64,000 bases of DNA. Source: Pseudanabaena yagii GIHE-NHR1. Its GTDB lineage: Bacteria > Cyanobacteriota > Cyanobacteriia > Pseudanabaenales > Pseudanabaenaceae. The stretch is taken from positions 2,042,001 through 2,106,000 of the forward strand of contig NZ_JAAVJL010000001.1 in NCBI RefSeq assembly GCF_012863495.1, read 5' to 3'. Positions 37,924 through 55,917 of the stretch are shown here, piece by piece (positions within the stretch are counted from its first letter, which is position 1; each line of letters starts with the position of its first letter). The notes beneath the pieces were generated by a model. The model ran no database searches, had not been told where the DNA came from, and saw only the letters and a list, made by a program, of their open reading frames with translations. The position numbers were made by a program, and so were the translations under genes.

Positions 37924-38011
37924 CTTGCTTAGAAAGACATGGAGACTATGGTTTTGCCATAGTCCCAATGATTTGTAGAAAGGCAAGGGGCTTGAGCCAT
38001 TTGTTCACTAA

Positions 38012-38228: not shown

Positions 38229-38380
38229 TAAGATTGGTATTTCATAAATGATTTAGGATTGCTATAAATGGCTGGATTGTCATCTATAACCCACTATTAG
38301 TGATCTTTTATCGTTAGAATCGCCGCTAAGCGATCTACTTCTTTTCATCTCAGCGAAAAATCCTGTAGACTTAGTTGCGT

Positions 38381-40477
38381 ATGGACTTTTTACCACCGCC
38401 TTCAACACAACTGCCACCTCGCCCATATGCAGAGGTAAGACAGCAATCTCCGCAACCGTTGGGATCATCACCAGCGTTAAATAGTCATATCGCTACGAGA
38501 TTGAATGTCGAATTGCCTATTGAGGTGAGATCGCAGTTAGAGCTGTTTTTAGAAAGGTTGCCTGATCCCGATGCGATCGCCCGTAAACTAATTGCCCCAA
38601 CTTTAACGGCTCAAGTGGGGTCAGTAAAGCCCAATAGCTTGCCGAAGCCCAAGCCTACGGATAAGCCACTCCAAGTCTCACCTCCCAAAACTCCGCCTAC
38701 AGGTAACTCCCAAGACATTAAACCTGTGTTGCAGGATTTGGCTCCTTTGCTGCGTAATTTGCTCAAGGTCGTTAGCGATCGCCAAGAATATGACATTAAT
38801 ACACAGGTGTTTGTCGCGGAAGGCAATGTTTTAATCAGATACAAAAAATCTGAACTGAAAGCTGATCGTGTGCAATTGAATACCAAGACCCAAGAGGTAA
38901 TTGCCGAAGGTAAGGTCTTTTTTACCCGTGGTGATCAAAAAATTCGTGGCACAAAGTTAACCTATAACTACGGCAATGTAAAAGGCGAACTGATCAAGGC
39001 TTCGGGTTCCGTTGATCTTGGTAATTTAGTTAATTCAGAAGTATCGCGATCGCCTGCGGATACAGCAACTAATTCGATTACAATTTCGGCTACTGGTAAT
39101 AGTGATACCTCTGATGGTCAAGTACGCCGCTTTGGCTTTGTTGCCGATCGCCTAATTCTCGATGGTGATACTTGGACAGCCGAGAATTTGCGTGTGACGA
39201 ATGATCCTTTTAGTCCACCTGAATTAGAACTTGTTACAAGCAAAGCGACCTTAACACCGATTTCTCCCACACAAAACCGTCTCGATCTAGAATCTCCGAC
39301 CATTATTTTCGATCAGAGTTTTTCGCTACCTTTACCACTGAATAGCATTACCCTCGATCGCTTTCAGAGGTTTGCCCCTGCGTTAGTGGGCTTCGATAAA
39401 CGCGATCGCGATGGGGTGTTCTATCAACAAAGTTTTGATGTGGTTTCCCAACCGAACCTCAGCTTTCAAGTATCACCGCAATTGCTCATCCAACGTGCCT
39501 TTTCTTCGGGACAGAGTGGTGTATCAGCCTTTGACATTTTTGGGGTGGTGGCAACTTTAAATGGAGCCTTTGATGATGGTCAAAGACTATCCGCAAGGGC
39601 AAGTCTATCGGGCTTAAACTTTGGCAACCTTGATTCGATCCTCCGCCTCAATGCTACCCATTCCATGACAGTATTTGGCAATCATACTTTGCTATCACAA
39701 TATGCTTTTCGCGATCGCGTATTCAATGGCTCGCTAGGCTTTCAGGATGTCAACAATATTGTGGGATCGACTTTGATCTCTCCCAACTATGTACTTGGCG
39801 ATTCCAAAATTTCCTTTAACTATCAACTTGCTGCCCAATTAGTGGGGGCGGTTCGGGATGATGTTGGTCAGCCTAATACGGTTGGTACATTAGTGCGTTT
39901 ACAGAGTGCAGCCGTTCTAAGTCGAGCCTTTCCACTCTTTCGTGGCGAACCTGCACCTGCTGAAAAAGAAACAGGTTTGCGCTACTCTCCTAAGCCGATT
40001 GTACCGAAGCTAGATGCTGTTGTGTCATTACAGGGTGTCAATTCCAGCTATTCTAATGGTGCTAATCAAGCGGTACTTTATGGAACTGTGGGCTTGTCGG
40101 GAGAAGTTGGGAATTTTGCGAAGGATTTCTTGGACTATACAGGTTTCAATATTAGTTATACACAGGCTTTTTCCAGTGGGCGATCGCCTTTTATATTTGA
40201 TCGCGTAGCAGATACGAGATTACTGAGCGCAGGGATTGTGCAACAAATATATGGACCTCTACGCTTTGGTATCCAACAAAGCTGGAGTTTGGATAACGGC
40301 ACATTATTTGATTCTGTTTATTCCTTAGAATATGCAAGGCGTACCTATGCAGTCTTGATTCGCTACAACCCCAATCAAGGTTTGGGTGAACTTCTATTAC
40401 GAATTAGTGACTTTAATTGGACTCGTCCACCTTCTAACGTAACTAATGTCCAGAATGGAATTGAACAGCGTAATTAA
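38381..40477 (+). CDS. DUF3769-family outer-membrane-type protein with OstA/LptA-like region
   Basis: A 698-aa protein. Residues 1-110 are proline-rich. Residues 130-225 contain an LptA/OstA-like beta-helix pattern (QVFVAEGNVLIRYKKSELKA, AEGKVFFTRGDQKIRGTKL). The long C-terminal part is beta-rich with alternating hydrophobic residues and an aromatic-rich end (LLLRISDFNWTRPP), as expected of an outer-membrane barrel in the DUF3769 family. This suggests an LptD-like role in lipopolysaccharide export, an inference. I use ATG 38381; a TTG six bases upstream is the alternative. No signal peptide is obvious with this start, which leaves a question about its export. Confidence 0.8.
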   Translation: MDFLPPPSTQLPPRPYAEVRQQSPQPLGSSPALNSHIATRLNVELPIEVRSQLELFLERLPDPDAIARKLIAPTLTAQVGSVKPNSLPKPKPTDKPLQVSPPKTPPTGNSQDIKPVLQDLAPLLRNLLKVVSDRQEYDINTQVFVAEGNVLIRYKKSELKADRVQLNTKTQEVIAEGKVFFTRGDQKIRGTKLTYNYGNVKGELIKASGSVDLGNLVNSEVSRSPADTATNSITISATGNSDTSDGQVRRFGFVADRLILDGDTWTAENLRVTNDPFSPPELELVTSKATLTPISPTQNRLDLESPTIIFDQSFSLPLPLNSITLDRFQRFAPALVGFDKRDRDGVFYQQSFDVVSQPNLSFQVSPQLLIQRAFSSGQSGVSAFDIFGVVATLNGAFDDGQRLSARASLSGLNFGNLDSILRLNATHSMTVFGNHTLLSQYAFRDRVFNGSLGFQDVNNIVGSTLISPNYVLGDSKISFNYQLAAQLVGAVRDDVGQPNTVGTLVRLQSAAVLSRAFPLFRGEPAPAEKETGLRYSPKPIVPKLDAVVSLQGVNSSYSNGANQAVLYGTVGLSGEVGNFAKDFLDYTGFNISYTQAFSSGRSPFIFDRVADTRLLSAGIVQQIYGPLRFGIQQSWSLDNGTLFDSVYSLEYARRTYAVLIRYNPNQGLGELLLRISDFNWTRPPSNVTNVQNGIEQRN

Positions 40478-40480
40478 TCC

Positions 40481-40515
40481 AAAAGAAAAGCCTCGCATTG
40501 CGAGGCTTTTCTTTT
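40481..40515 (+). terminator. Terminator of DUF3769 gene
   Basis: Perfect 16-bp arms aaaagaaaagcctcgc around ATT, starting 4 bp past the stop, followed by T-rich sequence. Confidence 0.75.
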
Positions 40516-40549
40516 ATAGAGGCTTTAGCTAAGCAAAGCCTCTATAAAA
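40512..40549. terminator. Second hairpin in the convergent gap
   Basis: Arms ttttatagaggcttt and complement with an eight-base loop, directly adjoining the first. Confidence 0.55.
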
Positions 40550-40560
40550 AATGGGTTAAC

Positions 40561-40676
40561 TATAGCAACGTAAGTTTTGCTTAGGACATAAAACCCAAAT
40601 AAGTGAAGGTGGCACAAAGTGCCACCTTCACTTATTTGGGTTTTGCTTTGTCCTAGCTATCTCTTACATTGCTATA
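40561..40676. mobile_element. TATAGCA-ended element supplying the msrB stop
   Basis: Ends TATAGCAACGTAAG and CTTACATTGCTATA match in 13 of 14 positions as inverted repeats. Inside is a 26-bp perfect hairpin (aaacccaaataagtgaaggt...). The msrB stop and last three codons (I-A-M) lie in its right end. Confidence 0.65.
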
Positions 40677-41209
40677 GGAATAAATTTGAGGGATACGCCA
40701 TTCATGCAATAGCGCTGTCCAGTTGGTTTTGGTCCATCATTAAAGACATGACCTAAATGACCACCGCATCGACTGCAATGGACTTCAATACGCTTCATAA
40801 AGAAGGAATTATCAACCGTAGTTGCGATCGCCCCTTCGATAGGCTGAAAAAAGCTCGGCCAGCCCGTGCCACTATTGAATTTGGTATCCGATGTAAACAG
40901 AGGCAAATCGCACCCTGCACAGTTGTAAGTACCCTTGCCATATTCCTTGTCTAAGGGACTGGTAAAGGCTCGCTCAGTGCCATGTTTGCGTAAAACGCGA
41001 AACTGCTCTGGGGTGAGGATTTGTTTCCATTCATCTTCAGTTTTCATAATTGGATATTTCTTAGTTGCTTTAGTTGAGTCTATATCTAAGTCTAAGGCGA
41101 TCGCCGAATCTTTGGATATGGAATTGCTCGATGGCGATCGCCAAGCCTGCCAGAGCCATGCACCACCGATCAAGGCAGTTCCAGTTATTAATAAATCTCT
41201 TTTCTTCAT
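40664..41209 (-). CDS. msrB: Peptide-methionine (R)-S-oxide reductase MsrB
   Basis: A 181-aa methionine sulfoxide reductase B. Zinc-binding CxxC pairs are CAGCDLP and CSRCGGH, and the catalytic cysteine is in [19 protein letters not shown] is typical. A preceding hydrophobic segment ([18 protein letters not shown]) with two basic residues ahead suggests export to the periplasm or lumen, or an anchor. The end of the protein, PIAM, is encoded by an inverted-repeat element, so the native C-terminus may have been altered. Confidence 0.93.
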
Positions 41210-41497
41210 GGTTGATCTGATGGGCTAATCGCCTTGGACTTTTCATCGTTAATTAACTTACGAAAATCAATGACTGGTTGGATGTGAAATTTTGACAAGG
41301 ATTTGCATTTAAGAACTAACCGAGAGATTTAAAAAAATATCTCGATTGGAAATAGCTGGAAATAGCGATCGCTTTCTCAACTTTCATCCACAGCAAAAAT
41401 TCCTTTCCAATCCCAAATTAGTAACGCGAAGCTTACACAAAATGTCAGCAATTTTTGACGAGTGATTGGTGTATGGCAGATCACAAAAAAGTAACAG

Positions 41498-41526
41498 TTA
41501 CTACTATCTACCATTTCGATTATAAT
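41498..41526 (+). promoter_or_regulatory. Putative sodB promoter
   Basis: A -35-like TTACTA (41498-41503), a 17-bp spacer and a perfect -10 TATAAT (41521-41526), 55 bp before the sodB start. The palindrome gtaacagttac covers the -35 side; it fits GTAN8TAC by pattern, but is too close to the -10 for a standard NtcA promoter. Transcription would start near 41533. Confidence 0.45.
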
Positions 41527-41581
41527 TGTAACAATACTTAAAGCTGAGAAATCACTTCAAACTTTAACTGGTTAAACAAAA

Positions 41582-42184
41582 ATGGCATTTGAACTCCCAC
41601 CTTTACCCTATGCCCAAGATGCTCTAGCAGCTTCGGGTATGTCTGCTGAGACCCTATCATTTCACTATGGCAAACACCATAAAGCGTATGTTGATAACCT
41701 CAACAACCTGATTAAAGATACAGATCTTGCTGACAAATCCTTAGAAGAAATCATCAAGATTAGCTACAAAGAAGGCAAAGCAGGAATCTTCAATAATGCT
41801 GCTCAAGTATGGAATCATACCTTCTACTGGAATGGTATTAAGCCTGCTGGTGGTGGCGCTCCTACTGGTGCTTTGTTAGATGCCATCAATGCGAGCTTTG
41901 GTAGCTTAGATAACTTTAAGACCGAATTTAAAAATGCTGGTGCTACTCAATTTGGTAGCGGCTGGGCATGGTTGGTTGCTGAAGGCGGTGCTTTGAAGAT
42001 TACCAAAACACCTAACGCTGAAAATCCTCTAATTCACGAAGGTCAAGTTCCTTTGTTAACAATGGATGTTTGGGAACATGCTTACTATTTGGACTTCCAA
42101 AATAGCCGTCCTAACTTCATGGCTAACTTTGTTGAAAAGCTAATCAACTGGGATTTCGTTGCTGCTAACTTCGCAGCCGCCTAG
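41582..42184 (+). CDS. sodB: Superoxide dismutase, Fe type
   Basis: A 200-aa iron superoxide dismutase. Metal ligands are visible: His in LSFHYGKHHKAYVDNL and QVWNHTFYWN, Asp and His in DVWEHAYYLD. GATQFGSGWAWL, with Gln and Ala before it, is characteristic of Fe rather than Mn enzymes. No signal peptide; probably cytosolic. It has a promoter-like sequence upstream and two hairpins downstream. Length is standard. Confidence 0.96.
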   Translation: MAFELPPLPYAQDALAASGMSAETLSFHYGKHHKAYVDNLNNLIKDTDLADKSLEEIIKISYKEGKAGIFNNAAQVWNHTFYWNGIKPAGGGAPTGALLDAINASFGSLDNFKTEFKNAGATQFGSGWAWLVAEGGALKITKTPNAENPLIHEGQVPLLTMDVWEHAYYLDFQNSRPNFMANFVEKLINWDFVAANFAAA

Positions 42185-42187
42185 TTT

Positions 42188-42249
42188 TAAAAAGCGCTAT
42201 GCGCTTTATTTTCGAAGAGAAGCATTGCCAAGCAATGCTTCTCTTTTTG
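42188..42249 (+). terminator. Tandem terminators of sodB
   Basis: A small hairpin aaagcgc-tat-gcgcttt (42189-42205) and a larger one aagagaagcattgc-caa-gcaatgcttctctt (42217-42247) ending in TTTTT. Confidence 0.75.
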
Positions 42250-42305
42250 TTTGGGCTAAAATTAACAAATAAGCGATCGCCTATTTGCGCCTTTCGGTGA
42301 ATACA

Positions 42306-42947
42306 ATGCCCCTACTGCAAACCAAAACGCCTCTAGATACTTGGCTAGCTGTGCCTTGGGAAGAATTTGTGAATATTGCCGATGCCCCAGACTCCAACAA
42401 GCTTAAAAGCTACTATTACAACGGCAAGATGAGGTTGGAAAATATGTCCACAGGCTCCGATCATTCCAATGATCATGCATTGATTATGTTTGCTATTGCA
42501 TTTTTTTCGGCTCATCAGCGTATACCGATGACTGCAAAAGATGGTTGCTCTTATCGGAAAAGTGGGCATACAGAATTTCAGCCTGATGCATCGTACTACG
42601 TTGGTGATAAAGCCGATGTTATACCTTGGGGAACCAGAATCATTGATTTAGAGCAATACCCATTACCCGATCTAGTTATTGAAATATCGGATACTTCTAT
42701 CTCCGATGACTTAGGCACAAAGCGACTGCAATATGAGGAACTTGGTATTTCAGAATATTGGATTGTGAATGTTCAGACTATGCAAATTTTTGCTTTTACA
42801 ATTGCGATCGATGGCAGCACTAAGCGGATTCGGGAATCCTTAATATTGACAGGAATGAAGTTGGAAATTTTGGAACAAGCCCTGCAACGCAGTCGCCAAG
42901 AAAACCAGTCCGTCACAATGGCTTGGCTAATGGAGCAGTTTAAATAG
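42306..42947 (+). CDS. Uma2-family (DUF820) putative endonuclease
   Basis: A 213-aa protein of the Uma2 family, abundant in cyanobacteria, with a restriction-endonuclease-like fold. YYYNGKMRLENM, FQPDASYYVGD, PDLVIEISDTSI and KRLQYEELGISEYWIVN mark the conserved beta-strand core and catalytic acidic residues. The biological role of the family is unknown. The ATG at 42306 is chosen over upstream GTG or TTG codons. Its last codons lie within a 24-bp perfect inverted repeat that also separates it from the convergent frmA. Confidence 0.85.
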   Translation: MPLLQTKTPLDTWLAVPWEEFVNIADAPDSNKLKSYYYNGKMRLENMSTGSDHSNDHALIMFAIAFFSAHQRIPMTAKDGCSYRKSGHTEFQPDASYYVGDKADVIPWGTRIIDLEQYPLPDLVIEISDTSISDDLGTKRLQYEELGISEYWIVNVQTMQIFAFTIAIDGSTKRIRESLILTGMKLEILEQALQRSRQENQSVTMAWLMEQFK

Positions 42948-42983
42948 AAGATAGTGGCTTGCCACTATCTTCTATTTAAACTG
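42934..42983. terminator. 24-bp perfect hairpin over the end of the Uma2-like gene
   Basis: Perfect arms gcagtttaaatagaagatag plus tggc around TT, unusually long and fully paired, with the TAG stop inside the left arm. Possibly a bidirectional terminator for this gene and frmA. Confidence 0.7.
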
Positions 42984-43015
42984 CTATTTCCAAATGAATG
43001 AGATTTTGGAAATAG
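42982..43015. terminator. 12-bp hairpin before frmA stop
   Basis: Arms gctatttccaaa and tttggaaatagc with a 10-base loop, 5 bp from the frmA stop. Confidence 0.55.
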
Positions 43016-43020
43016 CAATA

Positions 43021-44130
43021 CTAAAAAGTCAGTACTGTGCGAATGGCATCGCCTCTGTGCATCATATCGAAAGCCTCATTGATCTGCTCAATTGGCATGA
43101 CATTCGTAATTAAACTATCGATATCGATTTTGCCTTCCATATACCAATCGACGATTTTGGGAACATCAGTTCTGCCCTTTGCGCCGCCAAAGGCAGTACC
43201 TTTCCAGACCCGACCTGTAACTAACTGAAATGGTCGGGTACTGATTTCTTGACCTGCACCTGCCACACCGATAATCACACTCACGCCCCAACCCTTGTGA
43301 CAGCATTCGAGTGCTTGGCGCATCGTCTCTGTTCTACCGATGCATTCAAAGCTATAGTCTGCGCCGCCTTTGGTTAAATCAACAAGATAGGGAACGAGAT
43401 CGCCTTCGACTTCCTTGGGATTGACGAAATGGGTCATACCCATCTTTTCTGCAAGCACACGTTTTTTAGGATTTATATCTACGCCGACGATCATATTTGC
43501 GCCGACCATGCGACTTGCTTGGATTACGTTTAAGCCGATGCCCCCTAAGCCAAAGACAACGACATTCGAGCCATATTCAACTTTTGCGGTATTAATTACC
43601 GCACCGATGCCAGTGGTCACACCACAACCGATGTAGCAGACCTTCTCGAAAGGTGCATCCTCACGAATCTTGGCTAACGCGATTTCAGGGAGAACAGTAT
43701 AGTTCGCAAAGGTAGAGGTTCCCATATAATGATGAATTTTTTCACCATTAATGGAAAATCGGCTAGTTCCATCGGGCATTAAGCCTTGACCTTGGGTGAC
43801 ACGGATTGCTTGGCAGAGGTTGGTTTTACCACTGAGGCAATAGGAGCAGTTACGACATTCGGGAGTGTAGAGAGGAATTACGCGATCGCCTGCCTTCAGA
43901 GAAGTCACCCCTGCGCCTACTTCGACGACGACACCTGCACCTTCATGTCCGAGGATCGTAGGAAATAATCCTTCTGGGTCGGCTCCTGAAAGGGTGAATG
44001 CGTCAGTGTGACAGACTCCTGTGGCTTTAATCTCGACGAGTACTTCTCCTGCTCTGGGGGGATCTAGTTGTACTGTCTCAATTTTAAGAGGTTGTCCTGC
44101 GGCGAAGGCGACTGCGGCTTTTACATCCAT
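43021..44130 (-). CDS. frmA: S-(hydroxymethyl)glutathione dehydrogenase / class III alcohol dehydrogenase
   Basis: A 369-aa zinc alcohol dehydrogenase, expected to oxidise the formaldehyde-glutathione adduct with NAD. Catalytic zinc ligands lie in [12 protein letters not shown] (Cys) and [12 protein letters not shown] (His) and at Cys174 equivalents near [13 protein letters not shown]. Structural zinc ligands are the four cysteines in [15 protein letters not shown]. The NAD fold has [15 protein letters not shown]. The arrangement matches class III rather than the other ADHs. Single gene between converging Uma2-like and the alr fragment. Confidence 0.92.
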
Positions 44131-44222
44131 GAATCTTATTTAATTCCCTGCGTTGATTACTGACAATTTACCCAAAATTATAGCGATCTTGGATCATTGC
44201 TGAGATTAAATGATTTGAGAGA

Positions 44223-44684
44223 AATCCCGCCTCCCATCTCAAAAAATTGGCGAATTTACATCCAGCACTTACCGTTAAAGCCCGCATCACCCAAGTCAAA
44301 CCAATCACCGCAGGTACAAGTGTGAGCTATGGTCGCTCATTTATTGCACCACAGGACATGACCATCGCAACTGTCGCGATCGGCTATGCCGATGGCATTC
44401 CCCGTGGTCTATCTAACCGTATTCGCGTAGCTGTCAATGGGCAGAAAGTTGCTCAGATTGGCACAATCACGATGGATCAATGTGCGATCGATGTGACCCA
44501 TGTCTCAAATGTAAATGTTGGCGATGTCGTAACCTTCCTAGGCGGCGATTCCGAAAACACTGCTGATTACTGGGCAAATCTCCTCGGTACTATTTCATGG
44601 GAAATTCTCTGTGGATTCAAACATCGCTTACCGCGTATTAACGTGATGAATGCGATGGGTATTGCAAGCTTTACTTCGCAATAA
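44223..44684 (+). pseudogene. 3' fragment of alanine racemase gene (inverted duplicate)
   Basis: A duplicate of the end of alr, in opposite orientation to the full gene at 50454-51611. In frame it gives NPASHLKKLANLHPALTVKAR and then the racemase C-terminal domain. It corresponds to about the last 150 residues of the racemase; the PLP-binding N-terminal half is absent. A TGA (44211-44213) stops the frame just upstream. Positions 44445-44563 are identical to the full gene across 119 bases, while both sides show scattered differences. After NVMNA the endings differ (MGIASFTSQ here). Could be translated from TTG 44247, but is unlikely to be active. Confidence 0.85.
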
Positions 44685-44786
44685 TCAATCACTGTTACTA
44701 TTCCTAAACTTTAGATTGCTACAACTTACTATTACTGATTAAATAAGTCCAAGCTTTTTAAAATAACGCTACTCAAATTAGTATTT

Positions 44787-46109
44787 ATGACTGATCCCCA
44801 ATCTAAATTATTAGACAAAATTCGTCAACAGTTTGACAGTAGTCCTTATCCTCGTATTCCACTAGATAAGTCTCCTAAAGATAGTCCTAATGAGTTATAC
44901 ATTCATAACTTAGTGACTTCTTTCTATTTGAGAGACCAGAAAGTTATTGATACAAAAGATAAATATATTTTAGATGCAGGATGTGGCTCTGGTTATAAAT
45001 CCTTGATTTTAGCTGAAGCAAATCCTGACGCAAAAATAGTAGGGGTGGATATATCCGCAGAGTCAATTAAATTAGCTGAACAGCGTTTAAAATATCATGG
45101 TTTCGATAACGCTGAGTTCCATGTTCTATCTATAGAAGATTTAGCTCAATTGAAATATCAATTTGACTACATAAACTGTGATGAAATGCTCTATCTTTTC
45201 CCTGAGCCTGCTGAAGCTCTTAGGGCTATGAAAACAGTATTAAAACCAGAGGGAATTATTCGTAGCAATTTGCATAGTATAGAGCAAAGGTCTAGCGTTT
45301 ATCGTGCTCAAAAGATGTTTAAGATGATGGGATTGATGGATGAAAATCCTGAAGATCTAGAAATCGAAGTTGTTGTTGAAACAATGCAAGCCCTAAAAGA
45401 TAATGTCCTTCTTAAGTTTCAAACTTGGAATTCAAACTACACAAGCAAGGAAAATAAAGAAGACATTTTAATGAATCATTTGTTCCAAGGAGATAAAGGC
45501 TATACAGTCTCGGATATGTTTAAATTTTTAGAACTAGCTGGTTTAGAGTTTATTAGCATGGTGAATTGGCGTGAATGGGACTTTAGGGACTTATTTAAAG
45601 AATCAGATAATTTACCTATATTTTGGTCTATGAGCTTACCAGATATATCTATTGAGGAACGATTGAAAATATACGAGTTGCTTAATCCAGTTCATCGATT
45701 ACTAGACTTTTGGTGTGGTCATCCCCAAGCATCGTCAACATTTATTCCTTTTTCGGAATATTCTGATACAGATTGGCAGAAAGTAAACGTTTATCTTCAT
45801 CCTCAATTACAGACTCTTAAATTTAAGGAAGATTTACTAGCTTGTGTGACAGAATGTAGAAGTTTTAACATAAGTCAACATCTATCAATAAATAATCAAT
45901 TTATTAGTATTGATAGTGCAATCGCTATGTGTTTATTACCTCTATTAGATGCACCACAGAATATGATATCTTTAATAGACTTTTGGATGCATTTAAGACC
46001 TGTTAATCCAGCAACTTTAAAGTTTACAGATCTGGAAAGCTCATTTCAACTTATAAAGAAAACATTATTATTTCTGGAAGCGCTTGACTATCTTATGTTA
46101 GAAATTTAA
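44787..46109 (+). CDS. Class I SAM-dependent methyltransferase with extra C-terminal domain
   Basis: A 440-aa protein. Residues about 50-170 are a Rossmann-type methyltransferase: DAGCGSGYKSLILAEA (motif I), VGVDISAESIKLAEQRL (motif II), LSIEDLAQLKYQFDYINCDE. Residues 180-440 are a longer, unassigned domain with no familiar motif. It could be a sugar or protein methyltransferase in glycan modification, given the neighbouring glycosyltransferases. Codon use is AT-rich, and no HIP1 site is seen in it. First gene of the island between the alr copies. Confidence 0.82.
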   Translation: MTDPQSKLLDKIRQQFDSSPYPRIPLDKSPKDSPNELYIHNLVTSFYLRDQKVIDTKDKYILDAGCGSGYKSLILAEANPDAKIVGVDISAESIKLAEQRLKYHGFDNAEFHVLSIEDLAQLKYQFDYINCDEMLYLFPEPAEALRAMKTVLKPEGIIRSNLHSIEQRSSVYRAQKMFKMMGLMDENPEDLEIEVVVETMQALKDNVLLKFQTWNSNYTSKENKEDILMNHLFQGDKGYTVSDMFKFLELAGLEFISMVNWREWDFRDLFKESDNLPIFWSMSLPDISIEERLKIYELLNPVHRLLDFWCGHPQASSTFIPFSEYSDTDWQKVNVYLHPQLQTLKFKEDLLACVTECRSFNISQHLSINNQFISIDSAIAMCLLPLLDAPQNMISLIDFWMHLRPVNPATLKFTDLESSFQLIKKTLLFLEALDYLMLEI

Positions 46110-46199
46110 TCTTGGCAAAATATAAATTTCTTCAATGTAGATACACTCAAAACATAACATAGCCTAAAATCCTGCCATATTTAGAAATATATAAAGCAT

Positions 46200-46721
46200 C
46201 TATTTTACTACAATTACATTAAGACTAATCAAATTACCAAATACCTGTACAGTACTACAATCGTTTTGAAATATATTAAACTCAGGTACTCTACGACATT
46301 CAGTAAATCCAGCTTCTGATAAGTAATAGCATAAAATGTCAAAATCCAATCCCACCTTATGAACATCATATTGATTAACTTGTCCACCAAATATCATTCT
46401 CATAATCGCTATGCGATCTTGAATAGTGATATCTGGTCTTGAATAGAGCCAACATAACCTTCTAAGATCGGGGACACTTATCATTAGCTCACCACCTTTC
46501 TTAAGTACTCGAAACCATTCTAACAAGGTAAACGATAATTCGTGATTGAGCGCATAATAAAAATGCTCAAGAACATGACTTGCATATATTGCTTCAATTG
46601 ATTCATCTTCAAATTGACTCAAATCCGAAGCATCTCCCACATAATCCACTTCCTCTCTTTCTTCAATGTCAAAGATTTTCCAGTCGGGATGTTGTTCTTG
46701 TCCACCAATATGCAGTTTCAT
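46200..46721 (-). CDS. SAM-dependent methyltransferase, Methyltransf_11-like
   Basis: A 173-aa protein starting MKLHIGGQEQHPDWKIFDIE, then DLSQFEDESIEAIYASHVLEHF and VLKKGGELMISVPD, the short form of class I methyltransferase often found with glycosyltransferases in cell-surface polysaccharide clusters. Motif I is reduced (LHIGG) as usual in that group. It is the only leftward gene in the island, so it is transcribed alone. Substrate unknown. Confidence 0.82.
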   Translation of the reverse strand: MKLHIGGQEQHPDWKIFDIEEREEVDYVGDASDLSQFEDESIEAIYASHVLEHFYYALNHELSFTLLEWFRVLKKGGELMISVPDLRRLCWLYSRPDITIQDRIAIMRMIFGGQVNQYDVHKVGLDFDILCYYLSEAGFTECRRVPEFNIFQNDCSTVQVFGNLISLNVIVVK

Positions 46722-46985
46722 TTGATTTCCTATTTATAAACTAAATCGTCCTATAAATTATACATGTCCTTTACATGTCCTTGATATTGTCATGACTAAG
46801 GAGGAGCTATAATGGTCAAGAGATGCTAAAACATCCATTGGCTAACAAATAAAAAAGACGCAAATACACTGACCTCGCTTTAACTGTTCAGAACCACAAC
46901 CATCTCCTAAGCTTTTAAGTCTTTGTATAAACTATTGAGAAAACATATACAATAAAACTCATTGTCAAAATATTAATATAATCCG

Positions 46986-48173
46986 ATGCATAGTCCATAT
47001 CTATCATTATGTATGATCGTTAAGAATGAATCAAAAAACTTAGCTAGATGTTTAGATAGTGTTCATAGCATAGTTGATGAAATTATTATAGTTGATACAG
47101 GATCAGAAGATAACACCAAAGAAATTGCTCTTTCATACGGTGCAAATGTTTATGAATATGAATGGTGTGATGATTTCGCATCTGCAAGGAACTTTGCTAT
47201 CAGTTATGCAAGAGGTGAATGGATATTATCTTTAGATGCTGACGAAGAAATTAATTTAACTACAGACTTAAGTATTTACCTGAAATCGCTAAGTCTTTCA
47301 ATTCTCTGTAATATGATTTATAGATATCAAGTTATTTCTGATTCTGATAAATTTATAGAAGAAGGATACTATTTTCGTTTGTTTCGACGCGATCAAAATT
47401 TGTCATTTAAGGGGAGGCTCCATGAACAACTTTTTTATAAAAATCGCCCAATATTTGAACAAGAGATTAATCATTCAATTAAAGAACAGATTTTTATCAA
47501 ACATTATGGAGATGCAGATGGTAATTCTTTAAGAAAATGTCGTGAATTTTATATTCCTATGCTAGAAAGAATCGCTAGCAAGGAACCACTAAGTTGGATG
47601 CTAATGTACTACTTATACGGATACTATAGGGATGTAGGAGAAATAGAAAAATCTTTACAGTGTAGCGAGCAAGTTATTGAAAGATTAATTCCTTACATCA
47701 TATCAGGGCAAAAACCATTAGATTTTGTTTTTGTTCCTACTTGGTTAATTACACTATGTCAAACCTATTTTAATAATGAAGATTTAGAAAGTCTTTTTGC
47801 AATTCTTCCAAGATCTTTACAATGGTGTGATAGATCTCCTCATATCCTCAATTTGGCTGGAAGAACGCTATCCTCGCTTGGATTTCATTTGGGAGCTATT
47901 GCCTATTTGCAAGTTTCTTTAGATTGTTATATACACAAAACTTATAACTCCAATTTATCTTGCCAATTTGAGACTTTTAGTACTTCTTTTGACTTTTTAG
48001 CTGCTGAAGCATTTTATTTGCAAGGATGCTGCTACATAGCCTTAAATAAATTAGATGAAGCAGTTATATCATTAGAACAGTGCTTATTAACTAATTGTGA
48101 GTTTTCTGATGCTAGAGAAAAAATTTTCAATGATGCTAGAGAGAAAATATTCTTGATCAAGAAAAATTATTGA
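46986..48173 (+). CDS. Family 2 glycosyltransferase with C-terminal TPR-like region
   Basis: A 395-aa protein with a GT2 domain at residues 1-230: SLCMIVKNESKNLARCLDSV, IIIVDTGSEDNTKEIA and LSLDADEEI, the last being a DxD-like nucleotide-sugar site. This resembles glycosyltransferases with trailing TPRs of unknown target. Residues 270-390 contain helical repeats (AEAFYLQGCCYIALNKLDEAVISL). The C-terminus carries a short tandem duplication, DAREKIFNDAREKIF. AT-rich and without HIP1 sites. Confidence 0.85.
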   Translation: MHSPYLSLCMIVKNESKNLARCLDSVHSIVDEIIIVDTGSEDNTKEIALSYGANVYEYEWCDDFASARNFAISYARGEWILSLDADEEINLTTDLSIYLKSLSLSILCNMIYRYQVISDSDKFIEEGYYFRLFRRDQNLSFKGRLHEQLFYKNRPIFEQEINHSIKEQIFIKHYGDADGNSLRKCREFYIPMLERIASKEPLSWMLMYYLYGYYRDVGEIEKSLQCSEQVIERLIPYIISGQKPLDFVFVPTWLITLCQTYFNNEDLESLFAILPRSLQWCDRSPHILNLAGRTLSSLGFHLGAIAYLQVSLDCYIHKTYNSNLSCQFETFSTSFDFLAAEAFYLQGCCYIALNKLDEAVISLEQCLLTNCEFSDAREKIFNDAREKIFLIKKNY

Positions 48174-48219
48174 TAGAAATTTAAATTTTAATTGTAATAT
48201 TGAATCTAAAAATAACATC

Positions 48220-50415
48220 ATGGCTTCTCAAAATATTATACAAATCACTGATAGTGAAGTTAAAGTTATCCAGCAATTTATCTCTTCTGGTGATGTTGTA
48301 TTTGATGTTGGAGCAAATGTTGGTAATTGGTCTTTTCAAGTTTTATCCAATCATAATAGTGTAGAAATACATATGTTTGAGGCTATTCCTCAAAATTACT
48401 ATACACTTATTAAAAATTATGCAGATATTCTAAGAGAAGGTAACATCTTTCCAAACAATATAGCTTTATCTAATTGCGAAAAGATTCAAGATTGCTATTT
48501 TTATTCTCAAGATCCTGCATTAAGTACTATGTATAGAAGATTAGGAGTAGAGCAGTTACTAAATTTGGCTCCTCCTACTAAATTCTCTTTACCTACGATA
48601 ACACTAGATACATATTGCCAACAAAGGAACATTCATCATATTAACTTTTTGAAAATTGATGTAGAAGGTGCTGAGCTAGACGTATTGATGGGAGCTATCC
48701 AATTTTTGAAAAAAGGCTCTATAGATATAATTCAATTTGAGTATGGGGGGACGTATCAGGATGCGGGTATAACCTTGCAACAAATTTATGAACTTTTAGA
48801 GGAAAATCATTATTTTGTATTCAAGATTGAAGACGAAGATATAGAATTTATCCCAGTTTTTTCTTCAGAATATGAAGATTATCAATATAGTAATTTCTTG
48901 GCTATTAGCGATCGCATTTGCTCTTTGCTAATGGGTGAAGATGGAATAATGCTTAATATAAATGAACTTTGTTCTAAATATAATGTAGAACCACATGGGG
49001 TAATCCATATTGGTGCCCATGAAGGTCAGGAAGTAGCTGACTATATAGCGATGAATGTCTCCAAAATGATATTGATTGAGGCTAATCCAGAAGTATATGA
49101 ACGGCTTCAAAATAATCTAGCCAATTATGAAATCCAAGATATCTATTCTATAAATTGCGCTGTTAGCAACTATGAAGGTGTAGCACAATTACATATTACT
49201 TCTTCTGATCAGAGTAGTTCACTTCTACCTTTAAAGATTCATAGCCAGATTTATCCTCAGATTACAGAAGAAAAGCTAATTGAAGTTCCATGTAAAACTT
49301 TAGATGTCCTATTACATGAGTTATCTATTGATTTGAGACAATATAATTTACTAAATATTGACATTCAGGGAGCCGAATTACTGGCTCTAGAGGGAGCTAA
49401 ACAAACTTTAAACTTTATTGATGCAATTAATATTGAAGTTAACTATGATGAACTATATGAAGGTTGTAGTTTAGTACATGAATTAGATAAACTTCTAGAT
49501 ACTTACGGATTTGAGAGAATTATAACAACCTCGCCTTATCATAGAAGCTGGGGAGATGCTTTTTATATCAAAAAACCTATTGTTGTAATGTCCACTATTG
49601 GGAATAATGGACGTTTTGCGAATCAACTTTTTCAATATGCTTTTCTGAGAATATATGCTAAAAATCACAATCTTAGAATAGCTACATCACCTTGGATTGG
49701 ACAGACAATTTTTGGACACGCTGAGACAAATGAGGTTTTCAAGCCTTATCAATTATCAGTAGTTAGAGATCTTGATAATAGTTATGAGGATCTGGCCAAA
49801 TCACTTTTGCCAAATGCTACTCCTTTGCATGTTAATGTTGATTTTATAGGTTATTTTCAATATCATACTAAGTATTATTCACCACACAAAGAACTATTCC
49901 GATCGCTATTTAAACCAGTTCCGATAATTGCCTCAGCTATGAATTTAGCTTTGGAACGTTTGCAGTCTTTTGGTAAAACTATTGTTGGACTGCATTTGCG
50001 AAGAGGAGACTATGGACATGGGATATTTTTTACAGCTCCTACCCAATGGTATCGAGACTGGCTAGAAGGATTTTGGGATACTTTAGAAGACCCAGTCTTA
50101 TTTATTGCTAGTGATGATATCAATAGTGTGATTTCAGACTTTAGTGACTACATGCCTATAACAAGTAAAGATTTAGATATAGATATAACTGATAAGCAAT
50201 TAGAAGATTTTTATCCTGATTTCTATTTGCTTAGTCATTGCAATGTAGTAGCTATATCTAATAGCTCTTTCTCATTTGCCGCCTGTATGCTCAATGAAGT
50301 TGGCAATATTTTTGTACGTCCTCATTTACCTAGCAAAAAGTTAATTTCCTTTGATCCTTGGAACAGTAATGTCTTATTAAATGACAGCGTAGATATAGAC
50401 AGTTTAACGCTTTAA
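48220..50415 (+). CDS. FkbM-FkbM-GT11 fusion, predicted glycan methyltransferase/fucosyltransferase
   Basis: A 731-aa three-domain protein. Residues 1-225 are an FkbM methyltransferase (FDVGANVGNWSFQV, FLKIDVEGAELDVLMGA). Residues 240-455 are a second FkbM unit (HGVIHIGAHEGQEVADY, LLNIDIQGAELLALEGA). Residues 460-715 resemble family 11 alpha-1,2-fucosyltransferases: NGRFANQLFQYAFLRIYAK and the GDP-binding HLRRGDYG near residue 594, then SNSSFSFAACML. One polypeptide therefore combines two O-methyltransferase modules and a fucosyltransferase, which suggests methylated fucose-containing surface glycan. AT-rich, with one HIP1 site near 48908. Last gene of the island, facing the full alr. Confidence 0.85.
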   Translation: MASQNIIQITDSEVKVIQQFISSGDVVFDVGANVGNWSFQVLSNHNSVEIHMFEAIPQNYYTLIKNYADILREGNIFPNNIALSNCEKIQDCYFYSQDPALSTMYRRLGVEQLLNLAPPTKFSLPTITLDTYCQQRNIHHINFLKIDVEGAELDVLMGAIQFLKKGSIDIIQFEYGGTYQDAGITLQQIYELLEENHYFVFKIEDEDIEFIPVFSSEYEDYQYSNFLAISDRICSLLMGEDGIMLNINELCSKYNVEPHGVIHIGAHEGQEVADYIAMNVSKMILIEANPEVYERLQNNLANYEIQDIYSINCAVSNYEGVAQLHITSSDQSSSLLPLKIHSQIYPQITEEKLIEVPCKTLDVLLHELSIDLRQYNLLNIDIQGAELLALEGAKQTLNFIDAINIEVNYDELYEGCSLVHELDKLLDTYGFERIITTSPYHRSWGDAFYIKKPIVVMSTIGNNGRFANQLFQYAFLRIYAKNHNLRIATSPWIGQTIFGHAETNEVFKPYQLSVVRDLDNSYEDLAKSLLPNATPLHVNVDFIGYFQYHTKYYSPHKELFRSLFKPVPIIASAMNLALERLQSFGKTIVGLHLRRGDYGHGIFFTAPTQWYRDWLEGFWDTLEDPVLFIASDDINSVISDFSDYMPITSKDLDIDITDKQLEDFYPDFYLLSHCNVVAISNSSFSFAACMLNEVGNIFVRPHLPSKKLISFDPWNSNVLLNDSVDIDSLTL

Positions 50416-50453
50416 AGTTCTTTGTTGCATATCACGTTTATAGTAAGTAAAAC

Positions 50454-51611
50454 TTAAATAAAGTTAGTTATTGATTTTATACTGATCGCATTCATCACGT
50501 TAATACGCGGTAAACGGTGCTTGAATCCGCAGAGAATTTCCCATGAAATAGTACCGAGGAGATTTGCCCAGTAATCGGCAGTGTTTTCGGAATCGCCGCC
50601 TAGGAAGGTTACGACATCGCCAACATTTACATTTGAGACATGGGTCACATCGATCGCACATTGATCCATCGTGATTGTGCCAATCTGAGCAACTTTTTGA
50701 CCATTAACCGCTACACGAATACGGTTGGATAGACCACGGGGAATGCCATCGGCATAGCCGATCGCTACGGTTGCGATGGTCATATCCTGCGGGGCAATGA
50801 ATGAGCGACCATAGCTCACACTTGTACCTGTGGTAATGGTTTTGACTTGGGAGATGCGAGCTTTCACGGTAAGGGCGGGCTGTAAATCCACCAGATTTTT
50901 GAGATGGGGTGCGGGATATAGTCCGTAAATACCCAGCCCTGTTCGGACAATGTCATAATGAATTTGGCGATCGCATAGCATAGCGGCTGTATTGCAAATG
51001 TGAATACGGGGTGGGCAGATACCTTCAGCCTTAAGAGATGCGATTACTTGCTGAAATCTTTGAGTTTGCAACTGCATAAAGGTCTGATCTTTGTCATCGG
51101 CAGTGGCAAAGTGTGAATACACACTCATGATCTCTAAATTGGGCAAGTGTTGGACTAACTGTACAAAGGCGATCGCCTCTTGCCAATTCACACCTAACCG
51201 AGACATACCTGTATCAATTTTTAAATGTACAGGAACCCGTTCTTCGGTTTGAGAGAGAACTTCGTGATAGATCAGGGCTTGCTTAGAATTAGAAATTGTT
51301 GGTTGTAATCGATACTCAGCGATCGCTTTAATTTCGTCAACACCATTGGTCGCCCCCAACACGACAATGGGAACAGTGATTCCCGCACAGCGCAACTGGA
51401 TGCCCTCAGGAATAGTAGCAACACCTAACCAAGTCGCCCCCGCCTCGATCGCTGCTTGACTAACATCGATCGCTCCATGTCCATAGGCATCTGCTTTGAC
51501 GATTGCCATTAACTCTGTTGGCGCAGTTAGCTTAGCCTTTAGTTGACGCACATTATGCTGAATCGCAGATAAATCGACTTCCACCCATGCTCGATGGTTT
51601 TGCTTAAGCAT
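50454..51611 (-). CDS. alr: Alanine racemase
   Basis: A 385-aa PLP enzyme making D-alanine for peptidoglycan. The PLP lysine is in MAIVKADAYGHGAI, and the C-terminal domain carries the catalytic tyrosine region (SVSYGRSFIA) and MDQCAIDVTH. Length and motifs are complete, so it is the functional copy. Its 3' 430 bp are duplicated in inverted orientation at 44223-44684. The C-terminus after NVMNA (ISIKSITNFI) lies next to the glycan island, so the original end may have been replaced. Confidence 0.95.
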   Translation of the reverse strand: MLKQNHRAWVEVDLSAIQHNVRQLKAKLTAPTELMAIVKADAYGHGAIDVSQAAIEAGATWLGVATIPEGIQLRCAGITVPIVVLGATNGVDEIKAIAEYRLQPTISNSKQALIYHEVLSQTEERVPVHLKIDTGMSRLGVNWQEAIAFVQLVQHLPNLEIMSVYSHFATADDKDQTFMQLQTQRFQQVIASLKAEGICPPRIHICNTAAMLCDRQIHYDIVRTGLGIYGLYPAPHLKNLVDLQPALTVKARISQVKTITTGTSVSYGRSFIAPQDMTIATVAIGYADGIPRGLSNRIRVAVNGQKVAQIGTITMDQCAIDVTHVSNVNVGDVVTFLGGDSENTADYWANLLGTISWEILCGFKHRLPRINVMNAISIKSITNFI

Positions 51612-51727
51612 GACAGCGCAATCCTCAATGGCTTACAAAAAGTTATATTAATGTAATTCGGCAAAAAGACGCTTGATGTTCAATCAGGTTCCGTCACAAA
51701 CTCAAGGTAACTCAATAATTTATATTT

Positions 51728-53092
51728 ATGCGACTAAAGCCTCTCATGAAACTAGCGCCACAGATTTTCATGTCTAAAATTTGTCATGAATATAGTTTCG
51801 GGAATGCTCTTTGGCATAGTCTCTGGCAAATTGTGCGATCGCGCAAGCATTTTTTGCCATTTCTTTTTACAATCGCTTTTGTTACTACTTTGATTTTACC
51901 TAGTCTGATCCCTTCTTTGGGATCGACGGCTCAAGTGATCGCCCAAACCAATCAACAAAAGCAGCAGCTCAATAAGCAATTAATAGTGCCAAATTCGCCA
52001 AGTCCAGCACCTGTGATATCAAGACAGGAAATTCGCGGCGTTTGGTTAACTAGTAATGACTTTACAGTGTTTAGCGATCGCAAACAGCTAGGGCAAGCAC
52101 TCCAACAACTCAAGCAACTGAACTTCAATACCATTTATCCTGTTGTTTGGGCTTCGGGCTATGTGATGTTTCCTAGCACGGTTGCTCAAAATGCAGGGAT
52201 TCAGCCCTTTATTTATCGAGGTTCTGAGGGGCAGGATATTGTTGCTGACATCATCACGCAGGCACACCAGCATAATTTATTAGTTATGCCTTGGTTTGAG
52301 TTTGGGTTTATGGCTCCTCCCACATCAGAACTTGCTACTACTCATCCTGACTGGCTCACCCAAGAGCGTGATGGTGATACTACTTCTGTGACTGCCGCAG
52401 GGGAAGTTGCATGGCTCAATCCCTTTCATCCTGAAGTCCAGAAATTTCTGACGGAGTTAGTCCTAGAAGCCGTTTCTAATTACGACCTAGATGGAATTCA
52501 GTTTGACGATCACACCAGCCTGCCTAAAACCTTTGGATACGATCGCTATACCCTCAATCTCTATCGTCAAGAAACGAAACGAGATGCACCTGCTGATCCC
52601 AATGATCCTGATTGGGTACGTTGGCGTGCTAATAAAATTACTGCATTCATGGCAAATTTGAATAAAGCTGTGAAGCAAAGAAAGCCCAATCTCGTTTTCT
52701 CAGTGTCTCCTAACTATTATGAATTTGCCTATAAGCAACAGTTGCAAGACTGGCTGGGCTGGGTACGTCAAGGGATTGTCGATGAGTTAATTGTGCAGGT
52801 CTATCGCAATGATCTAGAGGATTTCCGTGCTCAAATTAGTCGTCCTGAAATTGCTGAAGTCCAAAATAAAATTTCTACAGGTATCGGAATTCTGTCTGGA
52901 CTCCGTAACAACAATGTCCCCATGTCACAGATTTACTCACAGGCGATCGCAACTCAAGAGCGCGGTTTAGGCATCTCCTTCTTTTATTACAAGAGTCTCT
53001 GGGGTTATGGTCCTGAATCGGTTAGCGATCGGCAAAGGGATTTACAATATCTCTTCCGCAACCCTGCCCCCAGATTTATTGCAAGAAAATAA
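51728..53092 (+). CDS. Glycoside-hydrolase-like (GHL10/DUF187) exported protein
   Basis: A 454-aa protein with an N-terminal signal-anchor (FLFTIAFVTTLILPSLIPSLG, about residues 39-60). The catalytic-like domain starts IRGVWLTSNDFTVFSDRKQL and includes PVVWASGYVMFPS, YDLDGIQFDDHTSLP and a final section of SFFYYKSLWGYGPES, all typical of the GHL10 (formerly DUF187) family of putative sugar-cleaving TIM barrels. An acid pair appears in DGIQFDDH. Function uncertain; cell-wall or envelope glycan hydrolysis is inferred. It shares a bidirectional terminator with the cyclase gene. Confidence 0.85.
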   Translation: MRLKPLMKLAPQIFMSKICHEYSFGNALWHSLWQIVRSRKHFLPFLFTIAFVTTLILPSLIPSLGSTAQVIAQTNQQKQQLNKQLIVPNSPSPAPVISRQEIRGVWLTSNDFTVFSDRKQLGQALQQLKQLNFNTIYPVVWASGYVMFPSTVAQNAGIQPFIYRGSEGQDIVADIITQAHQHNLLVMPWFEFGFMAPPTSELATTHPDWLTQERDGDTTSVTAAGEVAWLNPFHPEVQKFLTELVLEAVSNYDLDGIQFDDHTSLPKTFGYDRYTLNLYRQETKRDAPADPNDPDWVRWRANKITAFMANLNKAVKQRKPNLVFSVSPNYYEFAYKQQLQDWLGWVRQGIVDELIVQVYRNDLEDFRAQISRPEIAEVQNKISTGIGILSGLRNNNVPMSQIYSQAIATQERGLGISFFYYKSLWGYGPESVSDRQRDLQYLFRNPAPRFIARK

Positions 53093-53147
53093 AGAGCCTA
53101 ATTTTTTGGGGAGTGGCGAAGCCACTCCCCAAAAAATTAGGCTCTTT
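53091..53147. terminator. 27-bp perfect hairpin shared by two gene ends
   Basis: Perfect 27-bp arms starting aaagagcctaattttttggg around GAA. The rightward gene stops at 53092 at its left edge and the leftward cyclase ends at 53137 inside the right arm. Confidence 0.8.
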
Positions 53148-55917
53148 TACTAATGAGCCAATAGGTTTGCATCATTCCTTTACCCTTGACTTCAATCACA
53201 CCACGTTCAACTAAATCAAATTTATGTTTGAGAAGTTGATAGGTTTCCGCAGTAACTTGAATTTTACCAACTTCACTATGGGATTCCATTCGACTCGCCA
53301 CATTTACGGTGTCGCCCCAAAGATCATAAATAAACTTTTGCGTCCCGATCACACCAGCAATTACTGCCCCTGTATGAATACCAACGCGGATTTGTAAGGG
53401 GCTACCTGTTAAGATACGGAGTTCATCTACTTTATCAAGCATATCTAAAGCCATACAGGCGATCGCCTCCGCATGGTTGGTTCTGGGAATTGGAATCCCT
53501 CCTGCCACCATATAGGCATCACCAATAGTTTTGATTTTCTCTAAGCCATAGATTTCACAGAACGTATCAAAATTAGAAAAAATTAGATTCAGGAGATCAA
53601 CTAAATCCTGAGGAGAGAGTTCTGAAGACATTCTTGTAAAATTAACGATATCTGCAAAGAGCACTGTAACCGACTCGAAACTATCAGCAATGACCCCATG
53701 CGATTGCTTCAGGCGATCTGCGATCGCTTTTGGCAAAATGTTTAACAACAAACGCTCTGATTTTTCCTGCTCAGCAAACAGGGCTTCTTCCGCAAGTTTC
53801 CGTTGTGTAATATCGTCTAATACGCCCAAAATGCCAATCGTCTTACCATCAGCATCAATGATTGGTAGTTTACTGATATCTAACCAAATCGATTGCCCTT
53901 GCTTATCAGGATTAATTTTGCGCTGAATTATATGCATCTCAGGCACATTTGATTCCATAATTTGCTGGTCATGTTTACGGAAATTATCAGCCAATTCAGG
54001 ATTATTGATCAGATCATAGTCAGTTTTGCCAATTACACTTTCAGGCGAATCAAGCTGAGCATACATCGCCCAGTTTTTATTACACCCGCGAAAGACTAAA
54101 TTGACATCCTTCCAGAAAATCTGTTGAGGAATACTATCGATAATTAATCGTAAATAAGCTTCCTGTTCCTTAAGGGCTTGCTCTGCTTTAATTCGTGCCG
54201 TAATATCCTGAAAACTCCAGACACGCCCAATAATCTGATCAGAGAGCTTTTGTGGGCGCGAATAACGCTCCAATATTCTGCCATCGATTAACTCCAGCAA
54301 ATCATAGCTTTCCATTTCAGGATGATGATAGAAATTATGCGATCGCTGCATAAAATCCTGAGGATCGACCATTTGTTCGGCGAGGAACTCTAATCGTAGG
54401 GAATAATCGGAAATAGCCAAAACCTCTAAAGATAGAGAAAACATATCCACAAACTGTTGATTGTAGGTGGTGATCTGCCCAACCCGATCCACTGCCAAAA
54501 TACCATCGGCGACCGACTCAAAGGTTGCTCTTTGCAAACTCACAAATTCTGCCAAGTCCGCAGTGCGCTGTTCGACTCTTTCTTCTAGCTCTTCTTTGTT
54601 TTTCGCAAGGGCAGTAAATGAAGCTTGCAATTGTTGCGCCATTTGATTAAAAGATTCTGCCAAAATCGATAATTCGCGGACATTTGCCGTGGCAATGGGA
54701 TGGTAGGGTTGCCCACTAGCAAGGTCGGCGGAAGCTGATAGAGTAGCAAGTAAATGAGATGCTTCGATAAGCTTCTCCACAGGCTTTGCAATCCATTTGG
54801 ATGTGTAAAAGCCCGTCAGGCTAGCAAAAACTAACGCTAAGGCACATAAAACAATGGTATTACGGGTATTGATATTAATGCGATCGCGAAAGTCTTGTTC
54901 CGATACCGTCACAATGAGCAACCAGTCTAATCCTTGAGCATTCCTTAACTTTGTAATCTGCACATACTGTGTTGCTCCTTCCCATTCCATTTGAATTTGC
55001 TGATGATTAGGAATATCTGCTAGATTAGGATATTTTTTTTGCAAATTTTGAAAAGCTAAACGCAGTAAAGAATTCTGACTTTGGAGAGCATGAATCCGCT
55101 TTTGCCCTTGCGGTGCATCAATGAAGGGATTTTCAGAAGTTGAAGTGGCAACTATTTCGCCTGACTGCTCGAGAATAAAAGCCTGTCCTGTTTTAGAGAT
55201 CTGGAGCTGTCGGAGAAAGTCGCCAATTTGCGAAAGTGTCAAGTCAATTGCTAAAACTCCGCGTAAATTTCCTGATTCACCATAGATGGGGACAGAAGCC
55301 GTAATCCCTAAAATAGGTCTTGCTACAAACAGATAAATTGGACTCCAAACCGCTTGTTTTGCTTTAATAGCTCCTTGATACCAAGGGCGATTGCGAGGAT
55401 TATAAATATCCGATTGAATTTGATTGAGAACTTTACCCTTGGCATCTAAACGATAGACAACTTTTTGTTCTGAGGTTGCCAATAAAAGCGATCGGTGTAA
55501 GACCAAATTACTTTCGCTTCTACGCTCAACCCCAATAAATTGACCTTGGGGATTAGCAGCATAGAAAAAATATAAATTTGGGGCTTGGCGCATTTGCTGC
55601 CAAAACAACTTATCTAACTTATCTAGGTTTTCTAAAGCTAGATGCCCGTCCCCTGCGGTCACAGCATGGGCTTGAAGGATTTCTAAAGGTGTATCAAAAT
55701 AGCCGCGTACATGGGTTTCAATGGTATTACTGACTTCTTGCCCAATCTGAGGTGCTAGCTCCTGTGTTGCCTCGCGCCCATTCTGCACTGATAACCATCC
55801 TGTAATCCCTACCGCAGCAATTACCTGTGTCACAAATGGAACAATCAGCAATATCTTCAGAGAAAGCTGATGGCGATTGCGTCGTGGTTGAGCATCATGA
55901 TGTAACGGGGCAGACAT
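53137..55917 (-). CDS. Membrane class III adenylate/guanylate cyclase with CACHE, HAMP and PAS domains
   Basis: A 926-aa receptor. An N-terminal transmembrane helix (about 22-42; LLIVPFVTQVIAAVGITGW) precedes a periplasmic CACHE-type domain of about 300 residues (SVQNGREATQEL ... YIQITKLRNAQGL). A second helix is near 353-370 (TIVLCALALVFASLTGFY), then HAMP (about 372-430), two PAS domains (about 465-590 and 600-715) and the cyclase domain (about 735-920; VTVLFADIVNFTRMSS, KTIGDAYMVAGGIP, LWGDTVNVASRM). The metal aspartates (ADIVNF, IKTIGDAY) are present. The substrate residues were not resolved, so ATP or GTP specificity is open. Confidence 0.9.
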   Translation of the reverse strand: MSAPLHHDAQPRRNRHQLSLKILLIVPFVTQVIAAVGITGWLSVQNGREATQELAPQIGQEVSNTIETHVRGYFDTPLEILQAHAVTAGDGHLALENLDKLDKLFWQQMRQAPNLYFFYAANPQGQFIGVERRSESNLVLHRSLLLATSEQKVVYRLDAKGKVLNQIQSDIYNPRNRPWYQGAIKAKQAVWSPIYLFVARPILGITASVPIYGESGNLRGVLAIDLTLSQIGDFLRQLQISKTGQAFILEQSGEIVATSTSENPFIDAPQGQKRIHALQSQNSLLRLAFQNLQKKYPNLADIPNHQQIQMEWEGATQYVQITKLRNAQGLDWLLIVTVSEQDFRDRININTRNTIVLCALALVFASLTGFYTSKWIAKPVEKLIEASHLLATLSASADLASGQPYHPIATANVRELSILAESFNQMAQQLQASFTALAKNKEELEERVEQRTADLAEFVSLQRATFESVADGILAVDRVGQITTYNQQFVDMFSLSLEVLAISDYSLRLEFLAEQMVDPQDFMQRSHNFYHHPEMESYDLLELIDGRILERYSRPQKLSDQIIGRVWSFQDITARIKAEQALKEQEAYLRLIIDSIPQQIFWKDVNLVFRGCNKNWAMYAQLDSPESVIGKTDYDLINNPELADNFRKHDQQIMESNVPEMHIIQRKINPDKQGQSIWLDISKLPIIDADGKTIGILGVLDDITQRKLAEEALFAEQEKSERLLLNILPKAIADRLKQSHGVIADSFESVTVLFADIVNFTRMSSELSPQDLVDLLNLIFSNFDTFCEIYGLEKIKTIGDAYMVAGGIPIPRTNHAEAIACMALDMLDKVDELRILTGSPLQIRVGIHTGAVIAGVIGTQKFIYDLWGDTVNVASRMESHSEVGKIQVTAETYQLLKHKFDLVERGVIEVKGKGMMQTYWLISKRA

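Follow-up and report, generated by a model that had tools for sequence, protein, structure and literature searches.

An inverted partial copy of alr beside a glycan gene block in Pseudanabaena yagii probably marks a past rearrangement

Here we describe a 64,000-nucleotide stretch of the Pseudanabaena yagii GIHE-NHR1 genome (G000:C1:2042001-2106000; hereafter the window), for which near matches in named records are mostly Pseudanabaena. In it, the 3′ end of the alanine racemase gene alr recurs in opposite orientation on the far side of a block of methyltransferase and glycosyltransferase genes. We read the inverted alr pair as the scar of a rearrangement, followed by exchange between two alleles of alr, and not as a switch built for inversion, and put the probability of this reading at roughly 0.62. 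The features discussed are the following.

43021-44130, minus strand: adhC, zinc alcohol dehydrogenase
44224-44662, plus strand: left arm, the 3′ part of alr cut at about codon 233 (PF00842 only)
44247-44684, plus strand: open reading frame of the left piece, TTG start, 145 aa, tail MGIASFTSQ
44445-44563, plus strand: tract of 119 bp free of differences from the right arm
44787-46109, plus strand: MT440, methyltransferase (Pfam)
46200-46721, minus strand: MT173, methyltransferase-like (Methyltransf_11, partial; Pfam)
46986-48173, plus strand: GT395, family 2 glycosyltransferase with TPR (Pfam)
48220-50415, plus strand: FkbM methyltransferase plus GT11-like protein (homology to G039 stops at 50407)
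50454-51611, minus strand: complete alr, 385 aa, tail ISIKSITNFI (PF01168 and PF00842)
50479-50917, minus strand: right arm, within the complete alr
51728-53092, plus strand: GHL10 glycosidase-like gene, the fixed upstream neighbour of alr in the genus

The inverted repeat (44224-44662 and 50479-50917) is 439 nt long and 92% complementary, with 5,816 nt separating its arms. It is the longest in the window; among the best 5 of 14 pairs, the other four have arms of 116-122 nt. Both arms match Ala_racemase_C (Pfam, profile positions 1-126 of 127), and they are the only two matches in the whole genome. The right copy combines the N-terminal barrel and the C-terminal domain of alanine racemase (PF01168 and PF00842), whereas the left copy has PF00842 alone and lacks the barrel. 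The right gene should be the source of the enzyme today, and the left piece an open yet incomplete fragment. The arms align without gaps and in an identical frame, the left open to ...NAMGIASFTSQ and the right to ...NAISIKSITNFI, so that a crossover anywhere within them would leave the racemase whole and alter its end only. The first-pass annotation had proposed both an inverted partial duplication of alr about 6 kb apart and a racemase that would survive inversion while exchanging the tails MGIASFTSQ and ISIKSITNFI; the arms, gapless and sharing a frame, uphold both. The interval that it had given, 44223-51611, contains a real repeat, but 51611 is the outer boundary of the complete alr gene, and the repeat itself stops at 50917. 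Inverted pairs of dispersed repeats of about 120 bases, 89-96% alike, also occur in the window (26516-26691, 35822-35937, 38006-38244, 9152-9269 and 31681-31798), and these repeats are perhaps small mobile elements.

A single alr match is present in each of 25 same-genus relatives (one genome per species, two of them 76% and 82% complete). GHL10 adjoins alr in 21 of the 23 same-genus loci read; the remaining two contigs end there, G009 with a partial GHL10 match and G013 with none. At L051, a locus outside this genome set, no GHL10 match was seen beside alr. The 3′ neighbour of alr differs clade by clade. On this side alr is linked to a locus of pilin and GT41 genes, 24 kb away in G008 and 36 kb away in G014; in both, MT440 has the same orientation to alr as in the window. 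In G003, an MT173, a GT41-group gene and a pilin gene lie directly 3′ of alr, in opposite orientation. MT440 is on the contig of alr in G017, on the other side of alr and 109 kb away, and G039 and G040 have the nadB region 3′ of alr instead. The end of alr in G003 overlaps the convergent end of MT173 by 24 bases (L154:11230-11253), so the alr tail is encoded there on the antisense strand of MT173. In all ten MT440 neighbourhoods read (drawn from 13 relatives with a match of at least 62% identity, two of them partial), GT41-group genes are found no more than about 7 kb from MT440, and pilin-group genes are nearby; these group labels denote clustering with this genome's own genes, matched by Pfam Glyco_transf_41 and Pilin_GH/N_methyl.

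The corresponding locus of this genome is spread across about 0.5 Mb, with pieces at 1952.5 kb (lnt), 2086.8-2092.4 kb (in the window), 2202-2207 kb, 2364-2390 kb (which holds pilins, GT41, GT383, MT193 and GT360) and 2482 kb. The piece in the window, MT440-MT173-GT395-FkbM, is flanked by the alr/GHL10 pair on one side and the adhC block on the other, with the 5′-truncated alr end at its far side from the complete gene. The adhC block (36769-44130) is located elsewhere in G002, G021 and G022. The geometry of the breaks fits an inversion of about 298 kb for FkbM/GT360 and one of about 134 kb for lnt/MT440. A neighbour predicted beside adhC was not found: when the lnt region here was compared with the adhC-side DNA of five relatives, nothing was common to them bar one weak match. 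A history of two inversions is not claimed, on account of this comparison. By the break behind GT360, more than 1 kb (L178:10018-11188, G000) has no open reading frame of 90 aa and is perhaps a decayed element. Beside GHL10 in G040 (L163:931-7200) are many open reading frames of recurring short peptides, CRISPR-array-like, following a short open reading frame that may be Cas2-like, judged by a motif. An element of about 600 bases 3′ of alr in G040 (L163:11205-11830) has more than 20 copies in G000, on the chromosome and on smaller contigs.

The arms differ at 33 of 433 aligned columns, and their longest clean run is the 119 bp at 44445-44563. Divergence is 12.6% over 44224-44445, nil over the tract except at its edge bases, and 4.3% over 44565-44656. 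At sites that vary in the genus, the arms differ at 0 of 45 inside the tract and at 29 of 144 outside it (Fisher p = 2.4e-4, for a tract chosen post hoc). Permutation of the longest clean run, which corrects for this choice, gives p = 0.002, compared with p = 0.37-0.63 for six control pairs. A chance origin of the tract is unlikely, and the permutation supports the earlier suggestion that it arose by conversion or recombination. An exchange between the alleles of alr that preceded their meeting in one chromosome would explain it as well as recombination between the arms would.

Changes were polarised using G039 and G040 as the reference. The left lineage carries 17 changes (11 synonymous and 6 non-synonymous) and the right 11 (8 and 3), with 5 undecided; the left excess is not significant (p = 0.34). 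From codon 259 onward, all eight left-lineage changes are synonymous, an outcome with P of about 3e-5 absent selection (1.3e-5 to 4.7e-5 across three transition weights). Six of these eight lie in codons 262-305, 5′ of the tract. The six non-synonymous left changes are confined to codons 235-258, clustering near the joint (Fisher p = 0.03, with 44303 taken as synonymous). The three non-synonymous changes of the right copy are likewise confined, to codons 244-261, where other alr genes vary too, so the left cluster may merely mark a variable stretch. We therefore do not take the non-synonymous changes by the left joint as evidence of flipping.

The left and right copies are sisters, with UFBoot support of 98 for the whole stretch, 53 for its 5′ part and 89 for the remainder. 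In the 5′ part, the left branch (0.146) is longer than the right (0.040), whereas in the remainder the two are equal. A D-to-Y change is common to both copies; the residue is aspartate in 24 of 24 other aligned alr proteins (G016 was omitted because its match stops early). Taken together, the synonymous-only changes from codon 259, the sister status and the shared D-to-Y change point to a recently working gene, and the left piece seems to stem from a complete sister-level alr that was working until recently. The likeness of the right tail to G039 and G040 (below), the single alr in 25 of 25 relatives, the constancy of GHL10 beside alr, and the MT440 locus, linked to alr in some relatives and scattered here, also favour the rearrangement scar.

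In the history that we favour, the left end would derive from a once-working, slightly diverged alr of a sister strain or haplotype, joined to MT440 in a junction that may be likened to the alr-MT173 junction of G003. This diverged end would have come to lie in one chromosome alongside the native alr, and the break that joined it to the adhC upstream region would have removed its front. Homologous exchange, either from arm to arm or between the alleles before they met, would have produced the 119-bp identical tract.

The DNA at the two joints differs in its affinities. The right tail and the first bases beyond it resemble G039 and G040 (75.6% over 41 bases, E = 0.01), whereas the left tail resembles none of the 24 compared. 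The left tail and the next 100 bases had no match at any other locus compared, and an exact search of viral contigs for the left tail gave 0 matches. No complete alr with the tail MGIASFTSQ ahead of MT440 turned up in a sister strain, which weighs against the favoured history. The left joint sits behind the adhC upstream region, where a TATAAT-like box is present in 12 of 20 relatives (counted by eye); similarity to some relatives extends 50-60 bases upstream of adhC, and once 84. Also upstream of adhC, 44179-44220 has a weak match (76%, 42 bases, E = 0.005) to DNA beyond GHL10 in G014. Two perfect hairpins, with arms of 25 and 27 bases, lie at gene ends in the window (42934-42985 and 53091-53147) and are terminator-like.

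The same arms could have arisen by an old inverted duplication in place, in which the alr end was copied by a template switch or a staggered break, its 5′ part then decaying while the working copy homogenised its 3′ part. We regard this as unlikely, though it is the strongest of the alternatives. Sister arms with a unique change in common, a divergence that drops from the 5′ to the 3′ segment, a longer left branch in the 5′ part and non-synonymous left changes gathered near the joint are all consistent with it. The last of these may reflect only the variable stretch in which the right copy's three changes also fall, and against it stands the purely synonymous record of the left lineage from codon 259. 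Homogenisation is a poor explanation of that record, as conversion would also remove synonymous differences, and an old duplicate that was never under selection is disfavoured by it. Some decay in place near the cut end of the left piece would nevertheless fit the six non-synonymous changes and the longer 5′ branch.

The rearrangement scar must also be weighed against an invertible segment, in which RecA-type homologous recombination between the arms would occasionally flip the 5.8-kb piece, which would exchange the end of the racemase and reorient the glycan genes relative to the DNA around them. The block has inverted repeats at both ends, their 439-bp arms include a perfect tract that chance is unlikely to have left, and the product of a flip would remain in frame; on this geometry, inversion from arm to arm by ordinary homologous recombination is possible. 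Because alr tails vary widely across the genus, such an inversion would probably spare racemase function. MT173 points one way relative to alr in G003 and the other way in the window, and a flip here would give an arrangement like that of G003. In Staphylococcus aureus, duplicated genes are reported to mediate an inversion that is reversible (PMC6778178). Yet the assembly shows one orientation, a second alr match occurs in none of the 25 same-genus relatives, and the native-looking tail is on the right copy. A Pfam scan of the nine open reading frames in 42285-53092 gave no recombinase, although RecA-type inversion needs none. Furthermore, left codons 262-305 would lie on the dead side after crossovers in the tract, but their six left-lineage changes are all synonymous. 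We consider this reading quite improbable. A bolder version is a shade less probable again: the inverted 3′ ends of a housekeeping gene would let a pilus-glycan block flip without a recombinase, leaving the racemase intact in both states, and the same hinge would have turned the pilin/glycosyltransferase locus around alr repeatedly in the genus (G003 versus G008 and G014). If the arms still recombine, a cyanobacterium would have a readily testable means of switching the orientation of glycan genes without a recombinase.

The block itself had been described as AT-rich and HIP1-poor, and that description stands: GC between the arms is 0.321, compared with 0.444 on the left and 0.398 on the right, and there is 1 HIP1 site against 9.8 expected from the remaining window (P = 6e-4). 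The same composition marks the pilin/GT41 locus elsewhere in the genus, where GC is 0.33-0.38 compared with 0.42-0.44 nearby and HIP1 is 0.27-1.13 per kb compared with 1.2-2.7, both lower in 7 of 7 loci. This contrast is weakest in G012 and G022, and the window block is the most extreme (0.321 and 0.17 per kb). G039 has a single cluster comprising MT173, GT395-like genes (one in two frames), FkbM-GT11, GT360, MT193, GT383 and a GT41-group gene. At the DNA level, MT173 of G039 is 86% identical to that of this genome and GT395-FkbM 89%, about the divergence of core stretches from G039 and G040 (87-91% identity), whereas the remainder of the G039 cluster, from GT360 to GT41, is 78-82% identical. 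G039 has no close MT440. It alone gives a strong DNA match to FkbM-GT11; together with the lower identity of the GT360-GT41 piece, this makes vertical descent less secure for the newer genes. Towards the GT395 end, 48107-48152 is a 24-base tandem duplication (an NDAREKIF-like unit, twice), of which G039 seemingly has a diverged form.

Since relatives of MT440 and MT173 form a genus-wide, AT-rich and HIP1-poor pilin/GT41 locus, the genes between the arms are probably native to the genus, less firmly so for FkbM-GT11, and the first-pass annotation's foreign glycan island gives way to a chromosomal locus of Pseudanabaena. From its gene content, we infer that this locus glycosylates pilins. A plasmid origin found no backing: when 72,556 plasmid records were searched for distant similarity, there were only five hits, all weak and about 200 bases long, four in Priestia and one in Niallia; annotated glycosyltransferase genes hold four of the five. 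No Rfam family reached its gathering score in 42000-54000. Islands brought in by an integrase leave direct copies, not inverted ones. Neither an integrase nor a transposase was found in the nine open reading frames scanned, and we set aside the integrase-island reading. Insertion of a foreign glycan island by an integrase or transposon is therefore very improbable despite the composition of the block and a precedent in Synechococcus elongatus, where HIP1 scarcity with unusual codon usage served as a sign of transfer in PMC3025956, which itself cautions that HIP1 scarcity can have other causes. The scar is instructive in that low GC and scarce HIP1 can characterise a locus that is native, not foreign, and in that a truncated gene copy can preserve a record of a lost allele and of a lost gene order.

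Partial gene duplicates occur at the breakpoints of chromosomal rearrangements. The alr pair resembles these in that, where synteny breaks, one copy is truncated and runs opposite to the intact gene. It differs from them in that this copy represents an allele that has diverged and was once under constraint, not an identical duplicate. Narrow literature searches, covering conversion or recombination at inverted repeats or duplications, gave no exact precedent; a search combining Pseudanabaena, genome and inversion gave nothing seemingly relevant, judged from listings, and no paper pairing Pseudanabaena with alanine racemase was found. As in the S. aureus hsdMS inversion (PMC6778178), inverted homologous gene parts could recombine here with the gene kept working; unlike there, one orientation is seen and the segment is 5.8 kb rather than half a chromosome. 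Large inversions are common in bacteria (PMC9584773). A further comparison is with the pilin/GT41 locus of Pseudanabaena itself, in which MT440 and MT173 adjoin pilin and GT41 genes in the relatives, whereas here the methyltransferase, glycosyltransferase and FkbM piece lies about 0.3 Mb from its pilin and GT41 genes.
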